Virus record (IMG/VR): IMGVR_UViG_3300037234_000196
Span: 1 to 44,760 of that record
Reading direction: 5' to 3' (one strand)
DNA length: 44,760 nt
From: a virus
Within the stretch, counting starts at the first letter, position 1. The number at the start of each line of letters is the position of its first letter. This document shows positions 3,697 to 43,557 of the stretch, piece by piece. The position numbers and the translations under genes were made by a program. Below the pieces are notes generated by a model. It was given only the letters and a program-made list of their open reading frames with translations, had not been told where the DNA came from and searched no databases.

Positions 3697-5735
3697 TTAA
3701 CCCCGACTTCCTCTACGGTATGACAACCGGTGACATCAGGTATGACATCGAAACGTACCCCAACGCGTTCACCGTGTGGTTCTACCACCCTGGAACACAG
3801 CGTAAGTGGTACTTCGAGATCAGCTTCAGACGCAATGATATACAGTCGCTGTGTCAATTCATGGAAGTGATGGCTGAGCAGCAGTGTCGCATGGTTGGGT
3901 ACAATAACATCGGGTTCGATTACCCGGTGATGCACTTCATCTATCGGAACAGGCACTCGTGCATCGGTGTCATCGACATCTACAACAAAGCGATGGCGAT
4001 CATCGAGGCGCATGGTCCAGCTAAGTTCGCACACATGGTGTGGGAATCTGACTGGATCGTACCTCAGATTGATCTGTACAAGATCCATCACTTCGATAAC
4101 ATGTCAAAGGCGACTAGTCTCAAGGTACTTGAGTTCAATATGAGAATGGATAGCATCGAAGACTTACCTTTCCCCGTTGGCACCATGCTAACCAGTGAGC
4201 AGGTTGACACTCTCGATGAGTACAACTGGCACGATATTGTTGCAACTGATATGTTCGCTGATCGCACTGAGAAGCACATCAAACTACGTGAAGGTTTATC
4301 AGAACAATTCGGTGTCAACATGATGAACATGAGTGACGTGAAGATGGGTGAAACTATCCTTGTCACCGAGATGGAGAAACGAGGTATCTCATGCTATGAA
4401 TACGATGGTAGGAAGAAAATCAAGAAGCAGACGAAACGCGAATCAATCGACCTGTCGCAAGTCATGTTCCCGTATGTTAATTTCGAGACATTACCATTCC
4501 AACAAATCAAAGCGTACCTGGAGTCAAAAGTCATCACAGAAACCAAGGGTGTGTTCAAGGGACTCATCGCATCTGTTGATGGACTCGACTACCACTTTGG
4601 CACAGGTGGATTACATGCCTCTGTTGAATCACAGGTCATCCACACTGATGATCGATACCAACTTGTTGATGTTGATGTTGCTAGTTTTTACCCTAACCTT
4701 GGGATTAAGAACAAGCTCTACCCGGCGCATCTAGGTGAGGCATTCTGTGACGCGTATCAAGGTGTCTATGAAACACGTATGACTTACCCGAAGAAGACCG
4801 CAGAAAATGAAGCATTCAAGCTGGCACTGAACGGTGCCTATGGCGGCAGCAACAACGACTACAGCCCGTTCCTCGATTCGTTCTACACCATGTCGATCAC
4901 CATCAATGGTCAACTGCTGCTATGTATGCTGGTCGAGCAGTTACTGAAGACACCTGGTCTACGCATGATCCAGGCCAATACTGACGGTGTGACTTACCTG
5001 TGCCCTCATGAGTATCTTGAACACACTCGATCAGTGTGTCGATGGTGGGAGCAACTGACAAACCTTGAGCTTGAAGAAGTGTTGTACAGTCGCATGTTCA
5101 TACGTGATGTGAACAGTTATATTGCCGAGTATAGTGACGGCAAACTCAAACGAATCGGAGCGTACGCACATGTCACAGCTGAAGAAGACCCCGGAACCAG
5201 AGAGTTGCCGTATCACAAAGATTGGTCAGCACGAGTCGTTGCACTCGCTGCTGAAGCTGCGCTCGTACGTGGTGTTGATATACGTGAGTTTGTTACTAAT
5301 CATGATGACATATTCGACTTTTTTCTTCGCACAAAAGTACCACGATCCAGCACCCTTGAATGGGGAGGTGAGCAGGTCAGCAACATTGTACGATACTACA
5401 TCAGCACAGATGGCAAACCACTTGAAAAAGTGATGCCACCGAACGGTGAGCCAGGTGAGTATAAACGCGCGAACAAGTTGACTGATCAATACTTCAACGA
5501 GGTCATGACTGAGATTGGTTTCGGCGTACATGATGAACGCATCCACACTAAGAACAAATCAACCTACGGTGAGCGTCGCAGTGGTATTAATACAGGATGG
5601 GATGTGATGGTGTGTAATAATATTTCTCAGGATGAATGGGTGCAAAGTAATTATCACCCGCGTGATTTGAATCATGAATGGTACATTCAACAAACAGAAA
5701 AATTAGTGAAACCACTGTTGCAAGGTTCAATGTGA
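3693..5735 (+). CDS. Family B-like DNA polymerase with 3'-5' exonuclease domain
   Basis: The 680-residue replicative polymerase has an N-terminal exonuclease with Exo I D18-I-E20 and an Exo II-like NNIGFDYPV segment. The polymerase motifs are family B in style: motif A DVDVASFYPN (D326/D328), motif B K376-LALNG-AYGG and motif C NTDG (D431). Motif C reads NTDG instead of the usual DTDS, so only one of the two aspartates is kept, a pattern found in some phage PolB-like enzymes. It is shorter than typical PolB. The start at 3693 gives an ATGA overlap with the membrane-protein gene; an upstream in-frame ATG at 3675 is possible. It should work with the SNF2-like helicase at 7695 and the primase-helicase at 40960. 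Confidence 0.85.
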   Translation: MINPDFLYGMTTGDIRYDIETYPNAFTVWFYHPGTQRKWYFEISFRRNDIQSLCQFMEVMAEQQCRMVGYNNIGFDYPVMHFIYRNRHSCIGVIDIYNKAMAIIEAHGPAKFAHMVWESDWIVPQIDLYKIHHFDNMSKATSLKVLEFNMRMDSIEDLPFPVGTMLTSEQVDTLDEYNWHDIVATDMFADRTEKHIKLREGLSEQFGVNMMNMSDVKMGETILVTEMEKRGISCYEYDGRKKIKKQTKRESIDLSQVMFPYVNFETLPFQQIKAYLESKVITETKGVFKGLIASVDGLDYHFGTGGLHASVESQVIHTDDRYQLVDVDVASFYPNLGIKNKLYPAHLGEAFCDAYQGVYETRMTYPKKTAENEAFKLALNGAYGGSNNDYSPFLDSFYTMSITINGQLLLCMLVEQLLKTPGLRMIQANTDGVTYLCPHEYLEHTRSVCRWWEQLTNLELEEVLYSRMFIRDVNSYIAEYSDGKLKRIGAYAHVTAEEDPGTRELPYHKDWSARVVALAAEAALVRGVDIREFVTNHDDIFDFFLRTKVPRSSTLEWGGEQVSNIVRYYISTDGKPLEKVMPPNGEPGEYKRANKLTDQYFNEVMTEIGFGVHDERIHTKNKSTYGERRSGINTGWDVMVCNNISQDEWVQSNYHPRDLNHEWYIQQTEKLVKPLLQGSM

Positions 5736-6933: not shown

Positions 6934-7250
6934 TGGGTGTTCGTGAAAACAAAGTCGAACGCTACCTTGACACCGAGGTGAAGAAGATCGGGGGAATCAC
7001 TCGTAAGTGGGTTAGCCCTGGGCGTGATGGTGTGATGGATCAAATCTGCTTTCTGAACCCTGAGTGGTTTGTCGAGGTTAAAACAACTGACGGGGTTCAG
7101 GAACCGCACCAGTATCGTGAAGCTCTACGATTGATAAATACCGGCGCGAGGGTTGCAATTGTTTATGGCAACAACGGTGTGGATAAATTCATCGAGTGGG
7201 TGAAGGTTCGCCGACATGATCAACCGCAGGTTCAGGTGGTGTTTAAGTGA
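6933..7250 (+). CDS. VRR-NUC domain nuclease
   Basis: The 105-residue protein is one VRR-NUC domain, a PD-(D/E)XK nuclease type found as a stand-alone enzyme beside phage SNF2-like helicases. N-terminal RENKVERYLDTEVKK.GG, catalytic D36 (GVMDQI) and E48-V-K50 (WFVEVKTTDG) are visible, then QYREALRL.NTGARVAIVYG. The expected role is structure-specific cleavage of branched DNA during replication or packaging. It overlaps its neighbours on both sides, and the helicase lies one gene further on, as in many phages. Confidence 0.9.
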   Translation: MGVRENKVERYLDTEVKKIGGITRKWVSPGRDGVMDQICFLNPEWFVEVKTTDGVQEPHQYREALRLINTGARVAIVYGNNGVDKFIEWVKVRRHDQPQVQVVFK

Positions 7251-7702
7251 TTAAGGTAAATCAGAAAGAAGTAGATCCTAAGACTGGTGACTGTATGAGG
7301 GCATCAATAGCCAGCGTGCTAGAAGCTGAATTGGAGGCTGTGCCACATTTAACAAGAACAGTTCAAGAAAAGTGGTTCACTGTGATGTATTACTTTTTCA
7401 TCTCATATGGATTTAAGTATTCTGGTATGTGGTGGCCTACCAATGGTAAGAGAAAGCTAAGAAAGAGAGACTCAATTGGCGGGTTTTACTTAGCCTCGGT
7501 CTACAGCAGGACATATCCGAGAAAGAGAAACATCACTCATCTTGTTGTGATGGATTCTAATTGGAATGTTGCGCACGATCCGCATCCTAATAAAAAATGG
7601 CAAGATGAAAGCCTATTGAATAACCCAGATCTTGAATCAATTTATAAGTTCAGAACGATGAACAAAACAGACAAGTGTTATTGGCATTATTTAAATGATT
7701 GA
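7247..7702 (+). CDS. Papain-like (cysteine peptidase-fold) phage protein
   Basis: The 151-residue protein starts with GTG overlapping the previous stop (GTGA). It has GDCMRASIASVLE, with C16 at the start of a helix, THLVVMD (H98) and NVAHDPHPN (D111). The order Cys-His-Asp/Asn and the helix after GDC fit a papain/C39-like fold, as in a group of small uncharacterised phage proteins. Whether it is a peptidase, a transglutaminase-like enzyme or inactive cannot be told from sequence. It sits between the VRR-NUC and helicase genes. Confidence 0.65.
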   Translation: MIKVNQKEVDPKTGDCMRASIASVLEAELEAVPHLTRTVQEKWFTVMYYFFISYGFKYSGMWWPTNGKRKLRKRDSIGGFYLASVYSRTYPRKRNITHLVVMDSNWNVAHDPHPNKKWQDESLLNNPDLESIYKFRTMNKTDKCYWHYLND

Positions 7703-9191
7703 CCTACTCCACCCGCAACAATTACATGACTATCAGAAGCAGTGCGTGATGCACATGCTTCAACATGACGACTCAATGCTGTGGCTTTCGATGGGATTAG
7801 GTAAAACGCCAGTCACACTTACCACAATCGTTGACAGGATGCGTGCAGGTCAGGTACAGAAGACACTGGTGTTCGGACCACTACGAGTCATACAGGCTGT
7901 GTGGGCACGTGAGGCAAGGAAGTGGAGTCACACTAAGCACCTTCGATTCAGCGTTGTACACGGCACCAAAGAGAAACGATCACGCGCACTGTTCGCAGAT
8001 GCTGACGTGTACCTTATCAACTATGAAGCAATGAATTGGCTCGCGGAACAACTGGATCACTACTACATCAGCCAGGGTAAGCCACTGCCGTTTCAAATGG
8101 TAGTCTATGATGAAGTGTCAAAGCTGAAGAACAGCACCACGCTACGCATGAAGGGTGGTAACCGTGACCGCAAAGATAAACGTGGTGAGTCATTCAAGAT
8201 CAACGTCACTGGTTGGCGTAAGATCCTGAACCACTTTAAATATCGAACCGGCCTCACTGGTACACCTGCATCAAATGGTTACCTGGATCTTCATGGTCAG
8301 TTCTTAGCAGTCGATGGTGGTCAACGCCTGGGTGAGTTCATCACTCATTATAAAGACAGCTACTTCGTCAGTGATTACAGCGGGTGGAAATACTCACCGA
8401 CTGAATTAGGCAAACAGTGGATCGAGCACAAGATCAGCGACATCACTGTGAAGATGGATGCACGCGACTACCTCGATCTACCTGATGTCAAGATGACGAA
8501 TCTGATGGTTGACCTGCCAGCGGCAGCACGTAAAGCCTATAAAGAAATTGAGAAGAATATGTTCACTCAGCTCGATAGTGGTAGTGAGGTCGAGGTATTC
8601 AGTCGATCATCGGTGTCAAATAAATGTTTACAGTTCTGCAATGGCTCCCCATATCTCAGCAGTGAGTCACCGGAGTTTGAAGTCATACATGATGCGAAGC
8701 TGGATGCACTGGAAGAGGTGCTGGAAGAAGCCGGGGGATCACCGGTGTTGTGTAGCTATTCATTCACGGCTGATGCTGACCGTATTATGAAACGGTTTAA
8801 AAAATACAAACCTGTGAACTTGACTAAAACAAAATCAACCGATACCGAGGCAGTTATCAACCGATGGAATAAGGGTGAGATTAAATTGTTAGTCGGTCAT
8901 CCTGCGTCAATGGGGCATGGGGTTGATGGATTGCAGGACTCAGGTCACATCGTCGTGTGGTTCGGCATCAACTGGTCACTGGAATTGTACGAGCAGATGT
9001 GTGGTCGCATCGACAGACAAGGTCAGACTCACCCTGTATCGATCATCAGGATCTTATGCAATGATACAATTGACCTGGCTGTTGCTGATGCTATCGAACG
9101 TAAGACCGATGACCAGGAAGGATTGAAAGCAGCATTGCAACGATACCGTGATGGTATTACCACTAATGATTTGGAGGTTAATTTTTTCTGA
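7695..9191 (+). CDS. SNF2-like superfamily 2 helicase
   Basis: The 498-residue ATPase shows the SF2 motifs in order: motif I MGLGKT (33-38), motif II D139-EVS, motif III LTGTP (187-191), motif V GHPASMGHGVDGLQ and motif VI Q434-MCGRIDRQGQ. The last two match the SNF2/RapA-like group rather than DEAD-box proteins. It would unwind or translocate on phage DNA near the polymerase and VRR-NUC nuclease. It overlaps the gene before it by 8 bp and the glycosyltransferase gene by 1 bp, so it belongs to the same transcript. Confidence 0.9.
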   Translation: MIDLLHPQQLHDYQKQCVMHMLQHDDSMLWLSMGLGKTPVTLTTIVDRMRAGQVQKTLVFGPLRVIQAVWAREARKWSHTKHLRFSVVHGTKEKRSRALFADADVYLINYEAMNWLAEQLDHYYISQGKPLPFQMVVYDEVSKLKNSTTLRMKGGNRDRKDKRGESFKINVTGWRKILNHFKYRTGLTGTPASNGYLDLHGQFLAVDGGQRLGEFITHYKDSYFVSDYSGWKYSPTELGKQWIEHKISDITVKMDARDYLDLPDVKMTNLMVDLPAAARKAYKEIEKNMFTQLDSGSEVEVFSRSSVSNKCLQFCNGSPYLSSESPEFEVIHDAKLDALEEVLEEAGGSPVLCSYSFTADADRIMKRFKKYKPVNLTKTKSTDTEAVINRWNKGEIKLLVGHPASMGHGVDGLQDSGHIVVWFGINWSLELYEQMCGRIDRQGQTHPVSIIRILCNDTIDLAVADAIERKTDDQEGLKAALQRYRDGITTNDLEVNFF

Positions 9192-12694: not shown

Positions 12695-15600
12695 CTACTC
12701 ACGGCTAGGACCAAATAGTAACTCTCGGGTGGTGAACTCTTCACCATCTTCAATGACATCATATAAGTGCTCCCCGGTGGACCACATTTGATTGACTCCA
12801 GGGACACCGATACCCGCAGCAATCAGCTTGCTCACATTCTTAATCTGACCGAGGGTGATGTCTTCATCAGTCATAATGTTCTTAACCAGACCCTTGCCTG
12901 ACGTGATGCCTCGCTCCATCATCGCAGCTACAGGGGTGGAATTGTAACCAAAGTCTGTGAATGCACCACTGGCAACATCCCTTACAAAAGGCACAGATGT
13001 CACAGGGTATAATGCTACCATTGTCAAAAAATTACTCATTCTCTCATCTTCACCCTCTGGTTCATCCAGCTCACCGCGCATGAACATCTCAAGGAATACA
13101 GGTATGGTGAACAAGAACATCGCTTTAGCAGCTGCTGATGTTGGTGAATACACACCAGATTTAGTACCTCTTATCAGATCCCTTGTCAAATTACCCAATG
13201 AGCTGAAGAACGTCATAAACATGGTGAACGTGGTGTGTATTTTAGACTGACTACGCATGATGCGTGCCATATCTTTAGTGGCACCAGAGCCTTGAGTATT
13301 TTCTAAAGTCACATCAGCAAAGTGAACAGCCTTAACTTCGTCACCATTCTCACTCAGATGTTTATCATAAGCTGCGTGCCATGTGGGTAAGTCAACCATG
13401 TACACCTGAATCAATGCAATGTGCTTCATTGACACTTCTTGCACAGCTGCCAGTGGACCTGTCTTCTTACTTAATCTATTCATTGCATTTCGGATTTCAC
13501 GATCCATTGTTTTAACACGATGCGGCAGAACCTTAGAACGCTCGTTTGCAAAATCCCAACCTGACTGCATATTTTCACGACTGCCGAGCAACTTGCGTAT
13601 TGTTCTCATGTACCACGCATTACCAACAACAGCTTGTACACCCTTAACAGTCGGACCCACACCCAACTCAGCAGCAGTTGTGAATATGCCGAACAGCTGC
13701 ATGATACCTGTTGTTGCTTTGAACCCCATTACACCGAGTGTGGTGCCAAAACGTAACCGACCGAATGCTTCATCGATGTATGTCTTCACCGGTTGCTGTC
13801 TTCCATCCTTAGCAATGTCGTTCAACCAAGGTTTCAATTCTTTAAACTCAGCCTCACCCATGACAGCAGTGATCGCACTTGCGACATCAGGTGACTGTAT
13901 AAGCCTGTTTACCTGGCGCACAGCATCATGGTGAGTGATGTAATGGATAGTCTCGTTGAAATGATCAGGTACAACCTCCATGCTGAGGTAGATTCGATCA
14001 TAGAAACCAGTACGTTCATTAGTTGCACCGGTGTTCACCGATGACTGGATGCTGGCTGTGTTGTTGAACATCGATTCAGTCTCAGCTTCACGCTTCTCAG
14101 CGTTCTTCTCAGCCTTGTGACTGCGTTTCGGTGAGTATTTGACCGGATAGTAACCACCTTTGAATGTACCATGTTCAGTCACAACAGGGGTCGCTACAAC
14201 CTTTGGTGGCACCAACCCAGTAGTACGACGGTGAACCTCAGCGAGTTGTGGGTATAGAGTATCCATTTGATCCCAAATCAACTGCACCAGCTCCCAGTCA
14301 CTCTTCGTCATGTGTGCCAGCACAGCCTGTAACTTAGGATTGTCAATTGTGATCTCAGCTTCATTCTCAGGGTCAGCCCAACCTTCACCGAGTAGTAACT
14401 TTTTCAAGTTACCCTGGTTACCAGTATTCAATGCAACTGCGAGAACCTGATGACCTTGTAAAGTATCATCGATCTCAGGGATAAAGACCTTCGTGTTATG
14501 GCGTGCTGCATCTTCTTTGCTTCGATTATTGATAGCTTTGATTACTGGTGTAGCTACGTCATCAACCAGATTCATCTTAGCATCGAGCGCATCGGTAAAC
14601 GGCTGAGTCAATATATCATGACTCATACCAACACGATCACCACCGTCGAGCCATGATGCAAGGAATGGGATCTTGGTGAGCTGTGATGCCCACCGTTGAA
14701 TATGTTCAGACAGTGTTGCTTTGCGTGCGTCATCGATACGACTGCGACTTTCTTTAGTCTCGAAGCGTGCATCCTGTTCACTGATATGATCAATCCAGTT
14801 AGCCTTCAGCTTCTGGAACTCAATCTCTTCACCGGCTACTTTCAATTTATTCGCGTACCGGGCAACATGCTCGATGTTCTTCACTGAATCATTGACACCC
14901 TGTAAATCTGAGAATGGTATATTTTTCCAATGGGTCACATAGGATTCATTCAGCACAGCATTTGACAGCACCAGACCATCACCGTCGTTTTCCATGCGAT
15001 CCTTCATCCACGTGTTGATGCTTTCAACTTCCTTTAGTGTAGCTACTTTTCTGAACTCAAAGCGACCGAGGATCTTAGTGATCTGATCCATGTAGCCGTT
15101 CTCAGCTTTCATTATTTCTTCACGTACTTTCTTCTTGTTGTACCGCGCCATGCGATCAACAATTTTAGTGGTCTCGTTCTTTGCACTGGTTGCAGCCATG
15201 CCGAGGTAATAATTCATCACCTGACGCATCTTGGCCTCAGCCGCACCTTCTTTGTTACCCTCAGCCAACATGCGTGCAGATTCCTGCGCTGCTCTGATCT
15301 CAGCTTTACGGTACTTGCCTGGGTGGTTCTCACGGAACGATAAGCGACCGATACGTTCTTCAGCCATTGCTTTAATTGTCGCACGATCAACAGTCGGTGC
15401 AGTTGTACCTTTAGCCAACATCTTCAATTCGTGCAGTATCAACTTACCACGTTCTTCATTCTGCACCGCTTCATCAGCTTCACGTTCAATGGTGCCATCG
15501 GTGAGGATATCACCGTGACGTTCAACCATACGAGCTTCAGCATTGACTTCAGCTTGAGCTTTGATAGTTGGAGCAGTGATCAGATCGATCAACATCTCTG

Positions 15601-18600
15601 AGCCTGATCCATAACCGAAGAAAGCAGCAGCTTCATCAGGGTGTACACCCCGCATACCTTTGGCTGTCATACCACGCAGTTCAGGGGGGACGATGACGGA
15701 CTTGACATCACGCTTATCAATTTTCTCTTCACCCACCATCGCTTTGACAGCGGCATGGTCGATCTTGAATTCACCGTCGCGCAACTCAGTACGAGCTTTA
15801 TAAATTTGCTCTTTACTCAGCGAGTCGAGTTCTTCATCGATGATGTCCTGCTTCTCTTCTTTCCACCACTTCTGAGTTTGGCGTGTCAGTTGTTTGATGA
15901 TCTTATTGCGCAGAGTTTCAGACTGTACGTCTTTCACTTTCTCCTGACGCTTCTGATAATCAGCGAACTCATCTTCAGTCATACCTGCCATCGCAGCATT
16001 AGTGAACATCGGTTCAACTCGTGCGCGTGACTCAGCAGCCTGGATCTGTTCTTCAGTAGCAATCAGTCGGTCGAACACCTGACGCATCTCATCGTCAAGG
16101 TTCACGTCAAGCTGTTTACGCAGAGACTGGTAGATTCGTACAAGCCAGCGTGCGAATGCTCTGAACGCGTTACGCAACTCGATAGACGGTGCTTTACCTT
16201 CCATCAGATAAGTCTCGAAGCCACGTGCGAACTGCTCATGAACAGCACGACGGATTGCTGCATCTTTGTCCTTGTTATCAGTGGTATTGTTGTCAAGGAA
16301 TGTGATTACATCATCGGCGGTGATTTCAACTTTCTTCTTGTCAGTACGCTCACCTTGTTTCAATACGTCAAACTCACCATCAACATAAGTCGTCGCCTCC
16401 TTCGCCACATCCTCAGCGTTACGCTTGTACCAGTTATTGATCGATTGGAGCATCTCGGTATCACCGTTGACCTCCATCTCGTACATGAAGTGGGCGAACT
16501 CGTGCAGGAACGTACTCAGATCAGCAGCTTCAGTCAGACGGATGACACTGTTTGATGGGTCATAGTAGCCGCGTGCGACTTGTTCACCGTCGGTGCGTTG
16601 ACGGAAGATGCTGGGGTCAGTGGGGTCGAATGTACCAATGTTTTCAACTGATTTAATATTGGTCTTACCGCTGTCGAAAATATGAACGTGAGCAGTACCT
16701 GATTCAATGTTCATTGTTTCAAATCGAGTTTCTGCATTTCTCAGAATGATAGAATCAAAACCCATTTCTTCAATGACTTCAGCAATCAGCTGTGATTGAA
16801 TTAACTCTCCAGTTTCAGGGTCATCTGCATACTGGTAGTCTTCACTTTCACGTAGAAGATTTTCGATGGTCTCAGGCGTAGCTTCACCACCAAGCTCAAA
16901 TACCTGACCAGAAAGGTTAGCAGCATCAACATCGTGACGATTTGAAATAGTTTGAATCGCTTCAATTAATTCATTAGGAGTTTCAGCTTCAATATCCCAT
17001 CGAGCTTCATCAATATCAACTTGATAGCTATCAATGTTTTCATTAACTTCTTCAATAGTGACATCGTTGTTATCAGCAACCTGTTCAATAGCATTATTCT
17101 GAATTTCTTCATTGTCAACAAACTCAATCCATTCAGCGTTCTCCCCGATGACAAACGGGTTGTCAACACGCACGAACAGTTCCATTGTTTGCTCTTCGCC
17201 ACCTGACAGTTCTTGACGCACTACGTTTCTAGCAAATTCCATTGTATCTTCATCATAGAATTCTTCACCGAAACGATCTTTAGCTGCATCGATACCTTCT
17301 TCATCAATGACATCCTGAATATCATCAACAACCTGTTCAGCACGTTGTTCAATACGGTTTGTTAAATCTGGACCTTCACCTGCGTAATTATCAGAAGCAT
17401 CACTCTCAGAACTAGTGAAGTAATTGATAGCACCAAACTGACCTTCAAGATTTCCGCGTAACGCATCGAACACATCGAAATCATGAGTCGTACCGTGAAA
17501 TACTTTGACTACCACTGGTGTATCAGCTTTGAACACGTGATCATTAATATCTTCAGGTTCTATTACTTCACCATCGCCAGACCATTTTTTGAACTCTTCT
17601 GTTTCAGTCGATACAATTTCAACAGGTGCCTGAGCAAACACCAAATCTTCTTCCAACTTAGTAACAGTCGCACCTTCAAACGCGATGATCCAGTTCAACC
17701 CTTCAACCAGTACACCGTCATGACCTAACTCCATCAGAGCTTCACGACGCTGCATAACCTCTTCAGCAGTGAGATCACCCAGCACATCAGCGAACACCTC
17801 AGCGTCAATGACAAGCGGGTTCTCAAGGGTGATTTCATGCACACTTAACTCGTTGCCGTAACGCTCAGCATTGCCGACATCATCGAATGAGAGATAGTGA
17901 CCCAGGTTACCGGCTGGTGTTGTGGTGTTCTGACCTAGAAGACTGTCATCAAACTGAGTAAAGTCTTTAGGGGATCGGTGGGTGACTGTTACTGTTTCGC
18001 CTGCTTTTGCCCGGTTGAACTCGGATAGAGCTGCTGCGTCATCTCTGATTTTCGTTTCTGTGATAAGGTCTTGCCGGGCTTGCTGCTGGTCAACTTCTTC
18101 ACGTCGTCTTGTAATTTGCTCATCTGTTATTACTCCGGGTTGTGCGAACGGTCTACGCCCTGCAAATTCAGCATTAACCATTCGACCGATTGATTGTTTT
18201 AATCCTGGCGATACTTCAAAATTTTCAATTTCTTCTGATAATGCGACACTGATGGCTTGACTTGGAAAATCAAAACCTAACCAATTATCACGATCAAGCG
18301 CGTTAATGAACTTACGATAATCTGGACCAAATTCATCAGCAGCTTCTAATACTTCATTAACTTCAGCATCTTCAGGTAACACATCGAGAAATTTGTCACG
18401 AGCAGATTCAAATATCTCAGGTGCATCTTTGTACGCAGGCTGCTCCAACACCATCTCACCTTCAAGTCGCGCACGCTCACCGGTGAGTGGACCTTCAATA
18501 GTCAAACCTGAATCTTGATAAACCTGCTGCACAGTCTTACCTTGGCGGCGTGCCTGAGCTGTTGCCCACGCTGGGACGATCTGCGCCATTGTTGATGCAT

Positions 18601-20362
18601 TAGCCGCGTTCACTTGACCTGAGTCGATCAGCTGATCACGAACCTGATCATAGATCTCTTGAGCTTCAACGTACTCGCTGGTGTTCTCCTGAGCTTCCTC
18701 CATCAAACCCTTGATGTAATTGTCAGTCTCATGCTGCACCTGCTCCTGGCGGAACGGTGAAGTGGTCTGATCACTCATTGTCATGCTGTCACGCAACTCG
18801 GTGAAGTGGTCAGTACCTGCAATGTCAGCAGCAAAATCAGCAACAGGCACCTGGACATCAACACCCAGCGCAGCAGCTTCACGCGCCTGTTCTGACAGCA
18901 GCTTCAACGCAGGGTCAGCTTCAATCTCTTCAATGGTCTTGCTCTGAAGGTACAATGATGTCTGAACACCATCAATGAACACGTGAGTATTATTCTCACC
19001 GTCAGCTTCACCGACGAATTGTCTAAATGATTCTTTGTCGCGTTCACGGAGTTTTGAGTCACTGACATTCTCATTAAGAGTGTCGATCTTCAACTGCTCA
19101 TTCTCAGACAACTTATCACGCTGCCGTGTTTCTGCGATGACACTGGCGGTTGTACCAACACCCGCGAATATCAATGATGCTTGAGCACCTTTCTTACCAG
19201 CTTCAAGTACACGTTCACCAGTTTCTTCACTGAATATAGTATCCAGTGCAGATGATAAATCCTGTTCAGTGAATGACTCTTCATCGATGTACTTAGCCAG
19301 TTCACCACCGATGACATTCGTGAATTCCTGTGCACTCTCGGTGACAGCTTCAGTAGCCACTGCGATGCCGTAGTCTTTCATCAAGCGAGTGATCATCGCG
19401 CGACCAGTCTCAGTACCCAGTGCTCTCTTCACTTTACTCTTAATCACAGCACGCATACCAGGTGTAACGGTACGACCCAACGCAGCTAATGATATGAACT
19501 CTAACCCTGCGTTAATTCCACCGACTAGCGTAGCTGCACCACCTGCAACCCGTGGTGATACATAATTACCTTGTTCATCTTGTAATACAATAAACTCATT
19601 GAATGCCAGACCAGCTTCTAAGTCGAAAGCAGCTTTAGCAACACCAACGCGACCTGATATTTTCGCAGCAGGTACACCGAGCGCAATTGCACCAGGTACA
19701 GCACCAACGCCGCCGAATAACACACCCCCAGCAGCACCAGTAGCACCGGCGACAACACCACCTGCTGCTGCATAACCCAAACCGGTACGCAGTATCTCAA
19801 ACATAATCGGCAACTGTTCTGCTGCTGCAACTGGCGCACCAACGAAGAATCCATATTCATCTGCGCCTTGTTTGGTTAGATCTTCAATTTCTTTTAATCG
19901 TGCGATCTGCTCATCAGTGACAACCTCATTTGCACCGAGCGACTGATACATCCTACTTAGGCCGATCTCTGACGACTCGACCATGAGTTGCCCTTTCTCG
20001 AATGACTCTGCTATATCAACCCCGTATTCACTTACAGTTTTTAACCCATCTTCAATTAGCTGCATGACACCAATATCATCCTGGGCAACAACAGCATTGT
20101 CGAAGTTACTGAGGTATTTAGATGTAGCGGGGCTGTTGGTTGTTATGTCATTGAAATCAATACTGTCAAGGTTGAATTTGTGTTCAACGCTCTCATCGAC
20201 TGCGAACGGGGGTACATCAGTGTCAATCGACAACTGCTGAGTTTTAGCATGTTCATCAGGATTGATCTTCAGTGCTTCACTAAAATTCGATTCTAACAGG
20301 TTATTCTCATCAACCTGTTGTTCAACTTCACCGAACTGAACCTTACTCAAATCAAAGGTCAT
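12695..20362 (-). CDS. Giant internal virion / polyvalent protein (gp16-position)
   Basis: This 2555-residue protein is 17% of the genome and sits where T7 has its ejected core protein gp16. Visible parts: a Gly/Ala-rich hydrophobic stretch (about 180-245) that could insert in membranes; a first ADP-ribosyltransferase-like region (about 790-905; H795 in THRSPKDF, GHYLSF, LGHDGVLVEG); a second (about 950-1230; H956 in FHGTTHDFDVFD, AINYFTSS); a zinc-peptidase motif H1287-EFAH1291; long charged helical regions; and C-terminal hydrophobic segments (near 2205-2245, 2410-2460). This domain mix is typical of polyvalent proteins injected with phage DNA. No peptidoglycan-cleaving domain is obvious. 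Region calls come from motifs by eye; overall role as an injected effector is inferred. Confidence 0.8.
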   Translation of the reverse strand: MTFDLSKVQFGEVEQQVDENNLLESNFSEALKINPDEHAKTQQLSIDTDVPPFAVDESVEHKFNLDSIDFNDITTNSPATSKYLSNFDNAVVAQDDIGVMQLIEDGLKTVSEYGVDIAESFEKGQLMVESSEIGLSRMYQSLGANEVVTDEQIARLKEIEDLTKQGADEYGFFVGAPVAAAEQLPIMFEILRTGLGYAAAGGVVAGATGAAGGVLFGGVGAVPGAIALGVPAAKISGRVGVAKAAFDLEAGLAFNEFIVLQDEQGNYVSPRVAGGAATLVGGINAGLEFISLAALGRTVTPGMRAVIKSKVKRALGTETGRAMITRLMKDYGIAVATEAVTESAQEFTNVIGGELAKYIDEESFTEQDLSSALDTIFSEETGERVLEAGKKGAQASLIFAGVGTTASVIAETRQRDKLSENEQLKIDTLNENVSDSKLRERDKESFRQFVGEADGENNTHVFIDGVQTSLYLQSKTIEEIEADPALKLLSEQAREAAALGVDVQVPVADFAADIAGTDHFTELRDSMTMSDQTTSPFRQEQVQHETDNYIKGLMEEAQENTSEYVEAQEIYDQVRDQLIDSGQVNAANASTMAQIVPAWATAQARRQGKTVQQVYQDSGLTIEGPLTGERARLEGEMVLEQPAYKDAPEIFESARDKFLDVLPEDAEVNEVLEAADEFGPDYRKFINALDRDNWLGFDFPSQAISVALSEEIENFEVSPGLKQSIGRMVNAEFAGRRPFAQPGVITDEQITRRREEVDQQQARQDLITETKIRDDAAALSEFNRAKAGETVTVTHRSPKDFTQFDDSLLGQNTTTPAGNLGHYLSFDDVGNAERYGNELSVHEITLENPLVIDAEVFADVLGDLTAEEVMQRREALMELGHDGVLVEGLNWIIAFEGATVTKLEEDLVFAQAPVEIVSTETEEFKKWSGDGEVIEPEDINDHVFKADTPVVVKVFHGTTHDFDVFDALRGNLEGQFGAINYFTSSESDASDNYAGEGPDLTNRIEQRAEQVVDDIQDVIDEEGIDAAKDRFGEEFYDEDTMEFARNVVRQELSGGEEQTMELFVRVDNPFVIGENAEWIEFVDNEEIQNNAIEQVADNNDVTIEEVNENIDSYQVDIDEARWDIEAETPNELIEAIQTISNRHDVDAANLSGQVFELGGEATPETIENLLRESEDYQYADDPETGELIQSQLIAEVIEEMGFDSIILRNAETRFETMNIESGTAHVHIFDSGKTNIKSVENIGTFDPTDPSIFRQRTDGEQVARGYYDPSNSVIRLTEAADLSTFLHEFAHFMYEMEVNGDTEMLQSINNWYKRNAEDVAKEATTYVDGEFDVLKQGERTDKKKVEITADDVITFLDNNTTDNKDKDAAIRRAVHEQFARGFETYLMEGKAPSIELRNAFRAFARWLVRIYQSLRKQLDVNLDDEMRQVFDRLIATEEQIQAAESRARVEPMFTNAAMAGMTEDEFADYQKRQEKVKDVQSETLRNKIIKQLTRQTQKWWKEEKQDIIDEELDSLSKEQIYKARTELRDGEFKIDHAAVKAMVGEEKIDKRDVKSVIVPPELRGMTAKGMRGVHPDEAAAFFGYGSGSEMLIDLITAPTIKAQAEVNAEARMVERHGDILTDGTIEREADEAVQNEERGKLILHELKMLAKGTTAPTVDRATIKAMAEERIGRLSFRENHPGKYRKAEIRAAQESARMLAEGNKEGAAEAKMRQVMNYYLGMAATSAKNETTKIVDRMARYNKKKVREEIMKAENGYMDQITKILGRFEFRKVATLKEVESINTWMKDRMENDGDGLVLSNAVLNESYVTHWKNIPFSDLQGVNDSVKNIEHVARYANKLKVAGEEIEFQKLKANWIDHISEQDARFETKESRSRIDDARKATLSEHIQRWASQLTKIPFLASWLDGGDRVGMSHDILTQPFTDALDAKMNLVDDVATPVIKAINNRSKEDAARHNTKVFIPEIDDTLQGHQVLAVALNTGNQGNLKKLLLGEGWADPENEAEITIDNPKLQAVLAHMTKSDWELVQLIWDQMDTLYPQLAEVHRRTTGLVPPKVVATPVVTEHGTFKGGYYPVKYSPKRSHKAEKNAEKREAETESMFNNTASIQSSVNTGATNERTGFYDRIYLSMEVVPDHFNETIHYITHHDAVRQVNRLIQSPDVASAITAVMGEAEFKELKPWLNDIAKDGRQQPVKTYIDEAFGRLRFGTTLGVMGFKATTGIMQLFGIFTTAAELGVGPTVKGVQAVVGNAWYMRTIRKLLGSRENMQSGWDFANERSKVLPHRVKTMDREIRNAMNRLSKKTGPLAAVQEVSMKHIALIQVYMVDLPTWHAAYDKHLSENGDEVKAVHFADVTLENTQGSGATKDMARIMRSQSKIHTTFTMFMTFFSSLGNLTRDLIRGTKSGVYSPTSAAAKAMFLFTIPVFLEMFMRGELDEPEGEDERMSNFLTMVALYPVTSVPFVRDVASGAFTDFGYNSTPVAAMMERGITSGKGLVKNIMTDEDITLGQIKNVSKLIAAGIGVPGVNQMWSTGEHLYDVIEDGEEFTTRELLFGPSRE

Positions 20363-36670: not shown

Positions 36671-37162
36671 ATGAACAACATTAAAATAGTACCCAACCTG
36701 CAACCCTGGGAAGTGATGAAGCGTGCCAGTGAGGGTGAGTCGGTGGCTTTATGTATATCCCCGCCTCATGCCGATGTTAAATGGGAGAGTGTCGAGGATG
36801 TCAGTTGGAATTGGGGGGAGTTTATCTACGCCATCATCGACACCACTGCACCAGAGATAGACTGGAGCGGGTTCGACTTTGATTTCTTTAATCAGTATGG
36901 TGGGCTAGGCACATCAAGCGTTGCTGATTCAAGCAGGAAGTATGTAACGAAGTCAGAACCGCTATCACCTGAGGTAATAAAGATCCGCGAATCCCCCTTC
37001 TACTACTGGCCCGGCGGCGACAAAGCACCTGTGCCTGATAATGTAGAGGTTGAAGTTATCATGCGCAGCGGTACCGATGGTACTGTAGGTGAAGCGCACT
37101 ATTTCAAATGGGGCAACCACACCAGCATCATCGCCTTCAGAATCACAGGCAATGTGTCATGA
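36671..37162 (+). CDS. Small phage protein with SIIAFRI motif
   Basis: The 163-residue protein is acidic and Trp-rich (WESVEDVSWNWGEFIYAI, EIDWSGFDFDFFNQYGG). It ends with KWGNHTSIIAFRITGN, similar to the W.H....DIIAYR motif of many small phage proteins. Start 36671 has GAAGGTGA upstream. No catalytic motif visible; function unknown. Confidence 0.65.
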   Translation: MNNIKIVPNLQPWEVMKRASEGESVALCISPPHADVKWESVEDVSWNWGEFIYAIIDTTAPEIDWSGFDFDFFNQYGGLGTSSVADSSRKYVTKSEPLSPEVIKIRESPFYYWPGGDKAPVPDNVEVEVIMRSGTDGTVGEAHYFKWGNHTSIIAFRITGNVS

Positions 37163-40086: not shown

Positions 40087-40148
40087 GAACCCATGTCCTT
40101 ATGGTGTTCATCGTGATCTATGCGGTTGCAGCTTTGTCGTTGATGTAG
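40083..40148 (+). CDS. 21-residue membrane peptide
   Basis: The product is MRTHVLMVFIVIYAVAALSL plus M, a single membrane helix. The ATG overlaps the previous stop (ATGA), the pattern used throughout this operon, which is the main support. It would be the last gene of the rightward small-gene operon. It lies 33 bp from the end of the leftward cassette region and has no clear terminator. Confidence 0.45.
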   Translation: MRTHVLMVFIVIYAVAALSLM

Positions 40149-40181
40149 GTGTATATTTGCCTGTATGCCTATGAATACCTG

Positions 40182-40577
40182 TTAGGCGCTCAATACTTCT
40201 TCGTATTCATCGTCCTCAAGTAACTTAATATTTATTGGCCTGCTATTTTTTATACTGTAAAAAGAAGGTTGCTTACCGTGCTTATCTGCCCATGAATCTA
40301 CAGCGGCCTTTATCAAGTCAACAAGTTCTTTGCCTTGCTCAACGGTACAATCAGGCCAGCTATCGCAGTATTCCCCCATCTCTTCATACGCCATGTCCAT
40401 CATAGCTTCGAGATCGTTTGGCATGAAGTCAGAGGCGGTAAACTTCACCGGCTCACCGGCATATATCGTTCTTATGTCGCCAACTTTTACGCCAACATCA
40501 TCAAACGCACTCTCACCGGCTTCATGTATGCTGTCATGATTATATGTTTCTTCGTCTGTGCTGTATTTTAATTCCAT
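40182..40577 (-). CDS. Cassette B gene, unknown acidic protein
   Basis: The 131-residue acidic protein (MELKYSTDEETYNHDSIHEA..., TIYAGEPVKFTASDFMPNDLEAMMDMAYEEMGEYCDSWPDC, PINIKLLEDDEYEEVLSA) has a helical centre and a Glu/Asp-rich end. The SDF......E.M...AYEE.GE motif resembles small phage-encoded proteins. Its ATG is only 13 bp from the cassette edge, and its stop lies inside the GCCTAAC core. Function unknown. Confidence 0.8.
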   Translation of the reverse strand: MELKYSTDEETYNHDSIHEAGESAFDDVGVKVGDIRTIYAGEPVKFTASDFMPNDLEAMMDMAYEEMGEYCDSWPDCTVEQGKELVDLIKAAVDSWADKHGKQPSFYSIKNSRPINIKLLEDDEYEEVLSA

Positions 40578-40590
40578 ATCTCTATCCCGC

Positions 40591-40655
40591 GCCTAACAAG
40601 GCGCATCAGCGGGAACGCGCAAAGAGAGTGCGTCCCCTGTGTTAATTGGTTATAT
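40591..40655 (-). other. attC-like recombination site between cassettes
   Basis: The order on the minus strand is: R'' ATATAAC (40655-40649), a 9-nt spacer, L'' CAGGGGACGC (40639-40630), an 11-nt loop, L' GCGTTCCCGCTG (40618-40607), a 9-nt spacer, R' GTTAGGC (40597-40591). L'' and L' pair over all ten positions of L'' if one T and one G of L' are left unpaired. These are like the extrahelical bases that guide integrase to one strand of attC. Spacers are longer than the usual 5-6 nt, so a somewhat diverged site is likely. Confidence 0.75.
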
Positions 40656-40910
40656 TCTTTGCTCAGCTAAAAGAGTCGTATCATCCATTCCTCTGGACTC
40701 AAGCCCTAATGTTTCACTTTCACCAAAACAGTTACCATTAACATCCACGAAGCCAGCGGATAATGGTGTTCTACTTACTCGATGCCATGCGCCATGCATT
40801 TGGTTTTTCAACCGACTGAGCGCATCAGCCATAACATCATGGTTAATGTTTCTAGGAAAAGTAATTATTTCTAAATCATTATCTTCATTAATCATACAAA
40901 CGTATTTCAT
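40650..40910 (-). CDS. Cassette A gene, small conserved unknown
   Basis: The 86-residue protein (MKYVCMINEDNDLEIITFPRNINHDVMADALSRLKNQMHG...) has the pattern SAGFVDVNGNCFGESETLGLESRGMDDTTLL, which I associate with a small conserved family in phages and bacteria of unknown function. TTTGGAG precedes the ATG inside the cassette, so it carries its own ribosome site. Its stop TAA is part of the R'' core ATATAAC. Confidence 0.8.
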   Translation of the reverse strand: MKYVCMINEDNDLEIITFPRNINHDVMADALSRLKNQMHGAWHRVSRTPLSAGFVDVNGNCFGESETLGLESRGMDDTTLLAEQRI

Positions 40911-40959
40911 TTTTTAATCTCCAAAATATAACAAATCAATCAAGCGCGACGGATAACCA

Positions 40960-43557
40960 TCACTTCACCATCTTCATCATCACTTCACCACGCACCTCTG
41001 TAATCTGACGCTGGTATTCATGATATAAGTCAGATGAATTCATTGCTTCGTACTTCTCTCTGTTACGCAGCACCCACAGTCTCACAGGTGTGCCTAAATG
41101 ATAAGCACGAGCTTGCGAGAACCTGTTTGTCTCTTTGATGATCATACCTGTCTTCACTGGTGTGAAGTACCTGCCCTCAGTGTACATGTCACCCGGCGCG
41201 AATATAGCACCACTCTTCAATGTCTCTGACATGTCGCTGGCTGTCACCAGGTCACATTTGAACGCACCCAGTTGCTTATTGGCGAACGCTTCAAGTGTCT
41301 GCACCATCGGTGACTTAGATGCTTCTCTGATCTCACGCAGGAAGTCAGTCATTGGTGGAGCTTCAGCCGGGTTGAAGTCACTCAGGTCAACCTGATACAT
41401 CAGATGGTATGCCACAGCTTGCCAGCCATTACCCTTCATCCAGTTCCATCGATCCTCCCAGTAGTCCAACCAGTCGCGTCGCATATTATCTTGATCATCA
41501 CGCGGGTTGAGGTCAGACCATACCGCGAAGAATCGACGTGATGGGCCATTCAACCTGAGTGGCATCATGCTGTTAGTGGTCATGGTTGCGTTCAGTATGT
41601 TGCGGATCTTAATCGGCTTGATGCCTTTCTGATTCACACGCAGTGTATCCGGTGGAGCAGCTGCTAACGGCTTCAGTTTGTTACTGATCGCCATCGCCTC
41701 ACGTCGGTCACCCAGCTCTGCTTCATTGATGTGCAGGTACTTGGTAGACAGCAGATGATCGTCGAAGTCACGCAGCAACTCTTCACCACTGATGACTGTG
41801 TAGTTGTCACCCATAGCTCGTGTAAGCGGGTACAACAGATAATCTTTACCACAACCCTCACCACTGCCTAACAGCAGCATGTGGTTGATCTTACGTTCAG
41901 GATGGCGCAAGGTGAACGCCATCCATTGTTCAATATGCTTCCTGTGCTCACTCCATCCGAGCGCGTCGAAGTGGTCGTGCCAGCGTGCGATGTCACCCTG
42001 CGCACCGTTTGACTGAGTGATGTCGGTCCAGGTGTTAGCATACATGGTGCCATTCTCATTGAATATCTGAGGTTGTTTCGGTGCATAGTCCAGCCGGTCA
42101 ACCTTTCGCACTCGACCATCCTGTAGAGCTATCTTCCTGGCCTCAGCATCCTCATGACTGAAGCTGTTCTGGAATGCCTCAGTGCTGAAGAAGATGCGTG
42201 ACTCCCAGTCATAGAACTGATTCAACTCTTTTACAAATACCACATTGTCATAGAAGTCAGCTTTGCTGGCTCGTTCACCGTACCATTGCTTACGCAGGTC
42301 TTTAAGAATCTCTTTTAAATCAACTTTTGACCACGACATAATGTCGCACACAGTGTTGTGCCAGTGCTTCTGATCGATCTTTGGCAGGTCGTCGGTGTAT
42401 TTCAGCACCTGTGACGACATAGTGCGTGCTTCATTGCTGGTCGGATGCAGTCGCAGCAGCTCATCACAGAGCATCTGGATTGCATCGAGGTCAGGGGTTT
42501 CATCTACCTGTGCTGTTTCCTGTAATGGCAGTATATTTTGTGGTTGAAGGAAGCTAATAGGAACGGGTTCGGGGGTTCGTATTTGTTGAACCGGGGTAAG
42601 GAAACTGGGTTCGGCAATAGATGAGAACTCACGCATAATCTGCCAGTTTTTGAGTGTTCCAGAGAACTCCACATTGTGACTATCGATGAACCGAAGCAGG
42701 TCGCGTCCTGTACGCTCTTGACAAGCCCCATGGTGGCACTTAAACCCAATACTCCCGTCTGCGTTTGTGAACACAGCAGAGCCAGAATCGTCTGAACCCG
42801 TGTGGTCTTCCACCCACGGGCATGTGATGTCAAAGCGCCCATCAGATCGCACCTCTTTAATGTGAATAATTTCAGGAATGTTAATTAGCGGATGGTCAGA
42901 TACAGCGGCTGCGCCATCGATACGTGACTCACGTCGCACCCGATCAAGATCAACACAGAACGGTGCAGCCAGTTGTTCAAGTGTCACACGTCTGGTTGGT
43001 TCCCATAATGTCAGTTGACATTTGTAAGGCACACCGTTGATCGACTTTGATGCTTTACTGTTTGACCCTTCAGGTAGGCGCACGTAGCGTGTGACCCCTT
43101 TCATACCTGGATCACGACCTTCAGGAGCTAGCCCGTTAGCAACCAGACCATCGAGTAAGTTCTCAACACGACTGCGATCTTCACATGGTTCATTGAGAAT
43201 GTACCCCCACTGCTCCGAACCTTGTGATGTCTCAAGTATCCACGCAGGACTGGGTAGCTTTGACACCTCATCCATCGACAGCTTCTCTTTGACATCATCC
43301 AGCACGATCACCGGTGTATGTCTGAAGAGTGCTTTGCGTCTGCGTGCCTGCCCCTCGTCATCACAGTAGAAGTTACTGATGGTGAAGTATTGATTGCTAC
43401 CGGGTTGGATATTGTACCGGCTGAAGTAGTCACCCTTCCATGCGATTAGGTGCTTGTCTTTAGGGATGTCACCTGGGTCATAGGGGAAGTCTGTTACATG
43501 TACCCACGGCGCATGTTCACCAAATAACGCAGTCAGGAATTCACTGTTTGTCACCAT
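40960..43557 (-). CDS. Primase-helicase (DUF5906-type helicase domain)
   Basis: The 865-residue replication protein has an N-terminal primase-like region (about 1-210; TPVIVLDDVKEKLS, ILETSQGSEQWGYIL, TRYVRLPEGSNSK) of the archaeo-eukaryotic type used by phages. A zinc motif follows near 244-275 (CPWVED...FKCHHGACQ). The C-terminal helicase has Walker A G564-SGEGCGKD and Walker B YLHINEAEL near 607-615. Then come TMTTNSMMPLRLNGPSRRFFAV, typical of DUF5906/D5-like helicases. It would prime and unwind DNA for the family B-like polymerase encoded on the other arm. Its stop lies 27 bp from the cassette junction. Confidence 0.9.
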   Translation of the reverse strand: MVTNSEFLTALFGEHAPWVHVTDFPYDPGDIPKDKHLIAWKGDYFSRYNIQPGSNQYFTISNFYCDDEGQARRRKALFRHTPVIVLDDVKEKLSMDEVSKLPSPAWILETSQGSEQWGYILNEPCEDRSRVENLLDGLVANGLAPEGRDPGMKGVTRYVRLPEGSNSKASKSINGVPYKCQLTLWEPTRRVTLEQLAAPFCVDLDRVRRESRIDGAAAVSDHPLINIPEIIHIKEVRSDGRFDITCPWVEDHTGSDDSGSAVFTNADGSIGFKCHHGACQERTGRDLLRFIDSHNVEFSGTLKNWQIMREFSSIAEPSFLTPVQQIRTPEPVPISFLQPQNILPLQETAQVDETPDLDAIQMLCDELLRLHPTSNEARTMSSQVLKYTDDLPKIDQKHWHNTVCDIMSWSKVDLKEILKDLRKQWYGERASKADFYDNVVFVKELNQFYDWESRIFFSTEAFQNSFSHEDAEARKIALQDGRVRKVDRLDYAPKQPQIFNENGTMYANTWTDITQSNGAQGDIARWHDHFDALGWSEHRKHIEQWMAFTLRHPERKINHMLLLGSGEGCGKDYLLYPLTRAMGDNYTVISGEELLRDFDDHLLSTKYLHINEAELGDRREAMAISNKLKPLAAAPPDTLRVNQKGIKPIKIRNILNATMTTNSMMPLRLNGPSRRFFAVWSDLNPRDDQDNMRRDWLDYWEDRWNWMKGNGWQAVAYHLMYQVDLSDFNPAEAPPMTDFLREIREASKSPMVQTLEAFANKQLGAFKCDLVTASDMSETLKSGAIFAPGDMYTEGRYFTPVKTGMIIKETNRFSQARAYHLGTPVRLWVLRNREKYEAMNSSDLYHEYQRQITEVRGEVMMKMVK

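Follow-up and report, generated by a model that had tools for sequence, protein, structure and literature searches.

Integron cassettes are mobile units of one gene each that as a rule reside in bacteria; the integron itself is commonly regarded as a bacterial platform whose cassette genes point away from attI and its promoter. In phages, 17 clusters of attC sites have been described by Qi et al. (2023; PMC9892861), who report that attC arrays pass from chromosomal integrons into Vibrio phages and that IntI1 recombines five of the six attC sites of virulent phages that were tested. The cassettes of the phages TJE1 and PH101 are described there as oriented one way, as is typical of bacteria, and a reversal with respect to attC is not mentioned (PMC9892861). 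Given these clusters, cassettes in phages are not new, virulent phages included, and the original prediction followed up here, whose author knew of no established system of podoviruses with integron cassettes, had been anticipated in this respect. We found no account of reversed phage cassettes in the open-access literature, a scope that is no proof of novelty; the reversed polarity, the common attI-like site, and the phage-specific type of attC described below nonetheless appear to be new.

The window analyzed here is the whole of a 44,760-base virus record from a marine phage, of which the capsid protein is about 85% identical to the capsids of the Vibrio phages 1.021, 1.185, MZH0603, and PS25B.1. 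Two small genes on the minus strand, A and B, follow directly downstream of, and in the same direction as, a DNA primase gene (40960–43557, minus strand; matches to Pfam DUF5906 and to PHROG primase). Gene A (40650–40910) encodes 86 amino acids and matches phrog_3988 (E 1.8e-14), with relatives in 117 phage records by tblastn; gene B (40182–40577) encodes 131 amino acids and matches phrog_1672 (E 6.7e-21), and tblastn gave only distant relatives of it, in phages of Vibrio and Pseudoalteromonas. Both families are of phage type and of unknown function. Sequence searches of the PDB with the two proteins gave no match, and a single-sequence scan of genome contigs gave no relative of protein B. A plus-strand frame at 40639–40917 was also considered as a gene and rejected. 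The site 3′ of the primase gene (40148–40960 in the window, and the equivalent in L003 to L032) is hypervariable, with small genes that differ in nearly every relative. The searches located cassettes A and B in the window phage and in one contig of 4.1 kb (L002) and nowhere else, and the other relatives with this primase carry different genes there; the expected absence of the block from related phages was thus borne out. Promoter and terminator scans gave no more than chance level. Elsewhere in the window, one sixth of the genome is taken up by a single very large open frame (2555 codons; 12695–20362, minus strand).

Both genes are enclosed by 7-mer boxes, which lie, as do the genes, exactly where the original prediction had placed them. 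On the plus strand, block B runs from GTTAGGC (40181–40187) to GCCTAAC (40591–40597) and block A from GTTATAT (40649–40655) to ATATAAC (40926–40932); in each block the start and end boxes are exact reverse complements, and A and B each terminate with a TAA inside a box. Such a double match had been called improbable by chance, a claim that did not survive simulation. When GTTRNNN was paired with its exact reverse complement 150–1000 bases downstream (GTTRNNN/NNNYAAC), the window contained 39 box pairs and five doubles with cassette-like spacing, and order-2 Markov simulations averaged 2.2 doubles. We therefore rejected the double match as proof of cassettes; it is insignificant alone, and the evidence must rest on the hairpin between the two blocks. 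The geometry of the boxes is, furthermore, symmetric, so that the polarity of a cassette is not readable from its boundaries alone.

This hairpin was the best match of two attC covariance models across the 44.8 kb on both strands, and its folding z was −3.5. The model R1 was trained on 29 attC sites whose polarity was known, from one array of Vibrio, two of Shewanella, and class 1 cassettes. As a control outside this training set, it recovered four sites in the Pseudoalteromonas phage PH101, for which Qi et al. had described an attC cluster (PMC9892861). It gave a single match in the window (40591–40647, plus strand, 15.8 bits, E 0.3), which is weak but top-ranked in the genome, and scored 5.5 bits on the minus strand. 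The model R2, built from 32 attC sites of other phage contigs (see below) with no sequence of the window, scored 29.7 bits at exactly 40591–40655 on the plus strand (5.7 bits on the minus strand), with an E-value of 3.6e-5 that is rough, given that other records, about 0.7 Mb in all, yielded one false match (24.3 bits); this match, in phage G015, lay inside a coding sequence and was rejected. The attC site predicted earlier at 40591–40655 is hence recovered to the base by a search of both strands. It reads R″ GCCTAAC (40591–40597), the arms CAGCGGGAACGC and GCGTCCCCTG, and R′ GTTATAT (40649–40655), i.e., the R″–L″–L′–R′ arms and G|TT boxes of an integron cassette. By eye, its 5′ arm (CAG[C]GGGA[A]CGC) has two extra bases when set against GCGTCCCCTG, likewise in Vibrio sites. 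An Rfam search gave no attC match in the window, an exact-pattern scan for this site matched no viral contig and, among genomes, a single unrelated acidobacterial sequence, and BLAST searches of phages and plasmids with this site and with a phage-type attC returned nothing useful.

The top strand of the predicted attC, by its structure and by R1, is the plus strand. Genes A and B, being on the minus strand, are thus oriented opposite to attC, and the intact site belongs to block B; in attC polarity, cassette B opens with the G|TT box GTTAGGC and closes where its attC ends (40181–40655, plus strand), with its gene antisense inside. A gene along attC with its stop beside R″, which is typical but not absolute for cassettes, was not found in the window. 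The cassette reading of the original prediction thus stands as to the type of DNA, for which the R2 score at the boxes speaks, and fails as to the usual gene orientation. On these model predictions, the block at 40181–40932 is integron-type material.

We ran R1 on 31 viral loci encoding relatives of the window primase. In L011, whose primase is 70% identical, an array of four cassettes lies directly downstream of the primase gene with attC opposite to the primase and the cassette genes, i.e., in the same place and polarity as the block in the window. A second half attC (R″–L″ side, ATATAACAAATCAATCAAGCGCGACGG; 40926–40952, plus strand) lies at the other box of block A. It gave no significant match alone by R1 or R2, and a degenerate pattern made from it and one of the L011 sites retrieved complete attC sites in other phage contigs; further IMG/VR contigs were then found by patterns from the sites of those contigs. 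Because it was gathered by attC-like patterns, this is a non-random sample and gives no estimate of prevalence. Sites of this type were found in L055, L056, L059 (G029), L060, L061, L070 (G033), L071 (G034), L078 (G035), and L079 (G036), so that with L011 there are ten other phage contigs, with arrays of 1 to about 15 cassettes each. Several of them are confirmed as phage by their genes: G034 has terminase, capsid, tape measure, and tail fibre genes; G029 has portal, protease, and capsid; G035 has terminase, portal, and capsid; L060 and L061 carry replication genes, L055 has RecT, and L056 has a tail fibre gene. Five records that did not contribute to the training of R2 (G034, G029, G033, L078, and L079) also contain arrays or sites by this model, and R1 reaches 26.1 bits in L056 and 23.9 bits in L011. 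The closing stem of this phage-type attC is invariant; its inner helix is roughly half paired if a single register is imposed, and its covariation score exceeds all shuffles. In the 11 phage contigs, counting the window, all 51 boxes that follow one another are exact 7-mer complements; this count, like that of orientation below, leaves out three attC-like candidates at array ends without an exactly matching box (4453 in the reverse complement of L011; 6588 and 6977 in that of L060).

In terms of orientation, the longest frame was antisense to attC in 57 of 57 phage cassettes when those with a frame of at least 45 codons were scored in the 11 contigs, the window included. Bacterial control arrays scored in the same way had 27 of 30 cassettes forward and three reversed (Fisher p 1.7e-19, although the cassettes are not fully independent). 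The original prediction, which had the window alone, could foresee cassettes in a phage, and a family of reversed-gene arrays elsewhere in phages was not visible to it. A Shine–Dalgarno-like motif precedes 31 of the 57 phage genes, and 33 have their final TAA in the R′ box. In the window, L011, L055, L060, and L061, replication or recombination genes flank the array and point the same way as the cassette genes; in G034 and L056, the array converges with tail genes instead. These genes, reversed throughout, suggest a separate, phage-adapted pool of shuffling genes. In the PH101/H101 genome (L053, 26920–28988), we also observed four R1 attC sites on the plus strand with the annotated genes between them on the minus strand, and unannotated forward frames there too.

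Among the reversed cassettes, one in L055 (1604–2218, minus strand) encodes a DNA modification protein of the Mom family (Pfam E 2.9e-25), possibly an anti-restriction gene, and one in L078 (1796–2536, minus strand) encodes a DNA methyltransferase (PHROG E 1.4e-80). The start of the latter cassette is common with a cassette of L079 (reverse complement, 7008–7777) in another array context, and the break falls at G|TT. Other products encoded on the reverse strand match phrog_8970 and phrog_986. A leader of about 190 bases from attC to the start codon is also common to cassettes with different genes (L078, 1541–1739; G034, 36931–37129; L056, 7006–7213; L060, reverse complement, 2144–2341). A promoter or a regulatory element may lie in this leader, although simple promoter scanning stayed at chance level.

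At one end of nine arrays, that of the window not among them, [CT]AGT stands directly before the first cassette box and forms an attI-like flank ([CT]AGT|GTTA); the background frequency of this motif is 1.2%. In L055, G033, and L079, conservation of the flank extends over about 150 bases as far as G|TT, and the cassettes beyond it differ. One cassette adjoins the attI-like site in G034 and is third in L079, with identity of 88% to the right and 38% to the left of G|TT; for the cassette common to L078 and L079, the corresponding values across G|TT are 97% and 17%. Breakpoints placed exactly at G|TT are, as far as these alignments go, marks of site-specific exchange. A search with the TIGR02249 profile found no integron integrase in the window record or in the array records; an integrase would therefore have to act in trans. 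A host integron was not found in a scan of bacterial genomes with one narrow pattern.

The window is a short and probably decayed example of this larger kind. Cassette A, in attC polarity (40649–40952, plus strand; boxes GTTATAT/ATATAAC), has its attC cut off at the primase junction, where the L′–R′ half of the site is missing at the end of the primase gene, and the left flank (40149–40180), which ends in GAATACCT before the first box GTTAGGC, does not recognisably match the attI-like flank that the other arrays have. With a single complete attC beside the half site, and nothing recognisable as an attI-like flank, the locus has probably decayed in part. In L011 (reverse complement, 4246–4460), the last block before the primase gene has mismatched boxes (GTTATGT/ACCTAAC) and only a degenerate half site. 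Judging from L011 and the right end of the window, the primase-side end of an array may be prone to decay. As for class, at least two attC sites, as expected of a CALIN, are present in L011, L055, L056, L060, G034, L078, and L079, while the window has one complete site and one half, with no TIGR02249 match in its record. Nor is it a complete integron of intI plus attI, since no intI was found in the window and the attI-like flank is seen in nine relatives but not in the window itself.

We consider it likely that the block is the remnant of a small phage-adapted cassette array, lacking an integrase of its own, in a podovirus of Vibrio type, downstream of the primase gene. In such arrays, the attC sites follow an attI-like site at one end, with the genes antisense to attC. 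The integron integrase of an infected host would fold the bottom strand of attC, which in the window is the coding strand, and cassettes would be swapped at G|TT between phages. Read-through from the phage operon would express the genes, and any new cassette would come in at the far end of that operon. What counts against this reading is the single complete attC in the window, its weak R1 score, and a left flank with no attI-like motif. More broadly, we lean towards the idea that phages keep an integron-like system of their own, in which a conserved attI-like site serves for docking, a pool of reversed genes is read from the operon towards that site, and cassettes, DNA-modification genes included, are traded between kinds of phage by host integrases.

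In keeping with the original prediction, these might be ordinary cassettes of a bacterial chromosomal integron, passively carried by the phage with their genes in the usual orientation. Arrays of attC do enter Vibrio phages from chromosomal integrons (PMC9892861), and the symmetric boxes leave the polarity open; nonetheless, both models put attC on the plus strand against genes on the minus strand, every one of the 57 phage cassettes is reversed, A and B match phage protein families, and the attC type is unlike that of the Vibrio and Shewanella arrays tested, so that we hold passive carriage to be improbable. The absence of IntI from all records, TIGR02249 being the only recombinase profile sought, and the differences in attC type and attI-like flank from bacterial arrays would also fit a separate system resembling integrons, in which a phage-encoded recombinase other than IntI uses attC-like sites. 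Such a system is, however, quite unlikely when R1, a model of bacterial attC, recognises the sites in L056 and L011 (26.1 and 23.9 bits), the G|TT box and the extra 5′-arm bases are common with bacterial attC, and IntI1 recombines several phage-borne attC sites (PMC9892861). Two ordinary accessory genes of a phage, with an unrelated hairpin between them and fortuitous 7-mer matches, would account for the weak R1 score and for box doubles at a number expected by chance, but hardly for an R2 match (29.7 bits, E 3.6e-5) that ends exactly on the boxes, for the same place and polarity as the L011 array, and for a second half attC at the other box; pure coincidence is accordingly very improbable.

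If the reading of a phage-adapted array is correct, phages of several kinds use integron recombination as a gene-shuffling system of their own with a common attI-like site, and the cargo would include DNA-modification genes (Mom and a DNA methyltransferase). Whether accessory genes are traded among phages via the integrases of their hosts then becomes testable. Also, a polarity taken from the direction of genes can put attC in the wrong cassette, as had occurred for the attC of the window.

Compared with known systems, the arrays resemble most closely the CALINs of the Pseudoalteromonas phage PH101/H101 and the Tetrasphaera phage TJE1 (PMC9892861), where small genes are likewise bounded by attC with no integrase, and the sites of the CALINs of Qi et al. 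are recognised by IntI1 (PMC9892861). The arrays here differ from those CALINs in their type of attC, in the attI-like flank common to them, in genes that are consistently reversed, and in sizes that reach about 15 cassettes, features undescribed there. With the sedentary chromosomal integrons of Vibrio and Shewanella they share the attC fold, the G|TT boxes, and one small gene per cassette, mostly of unknown function, whereas those integrons have forward genes (27 of 30), GCGTTA instead of GGTTA on the R′ side, and both integrase and attI. The mobile class 1 cassettes (aadA1, dfrA1, and others) have attC sites of similar size and fold (60–95 nt) and are distinguished by forward genes, resistance functions, and the presence of intI1.
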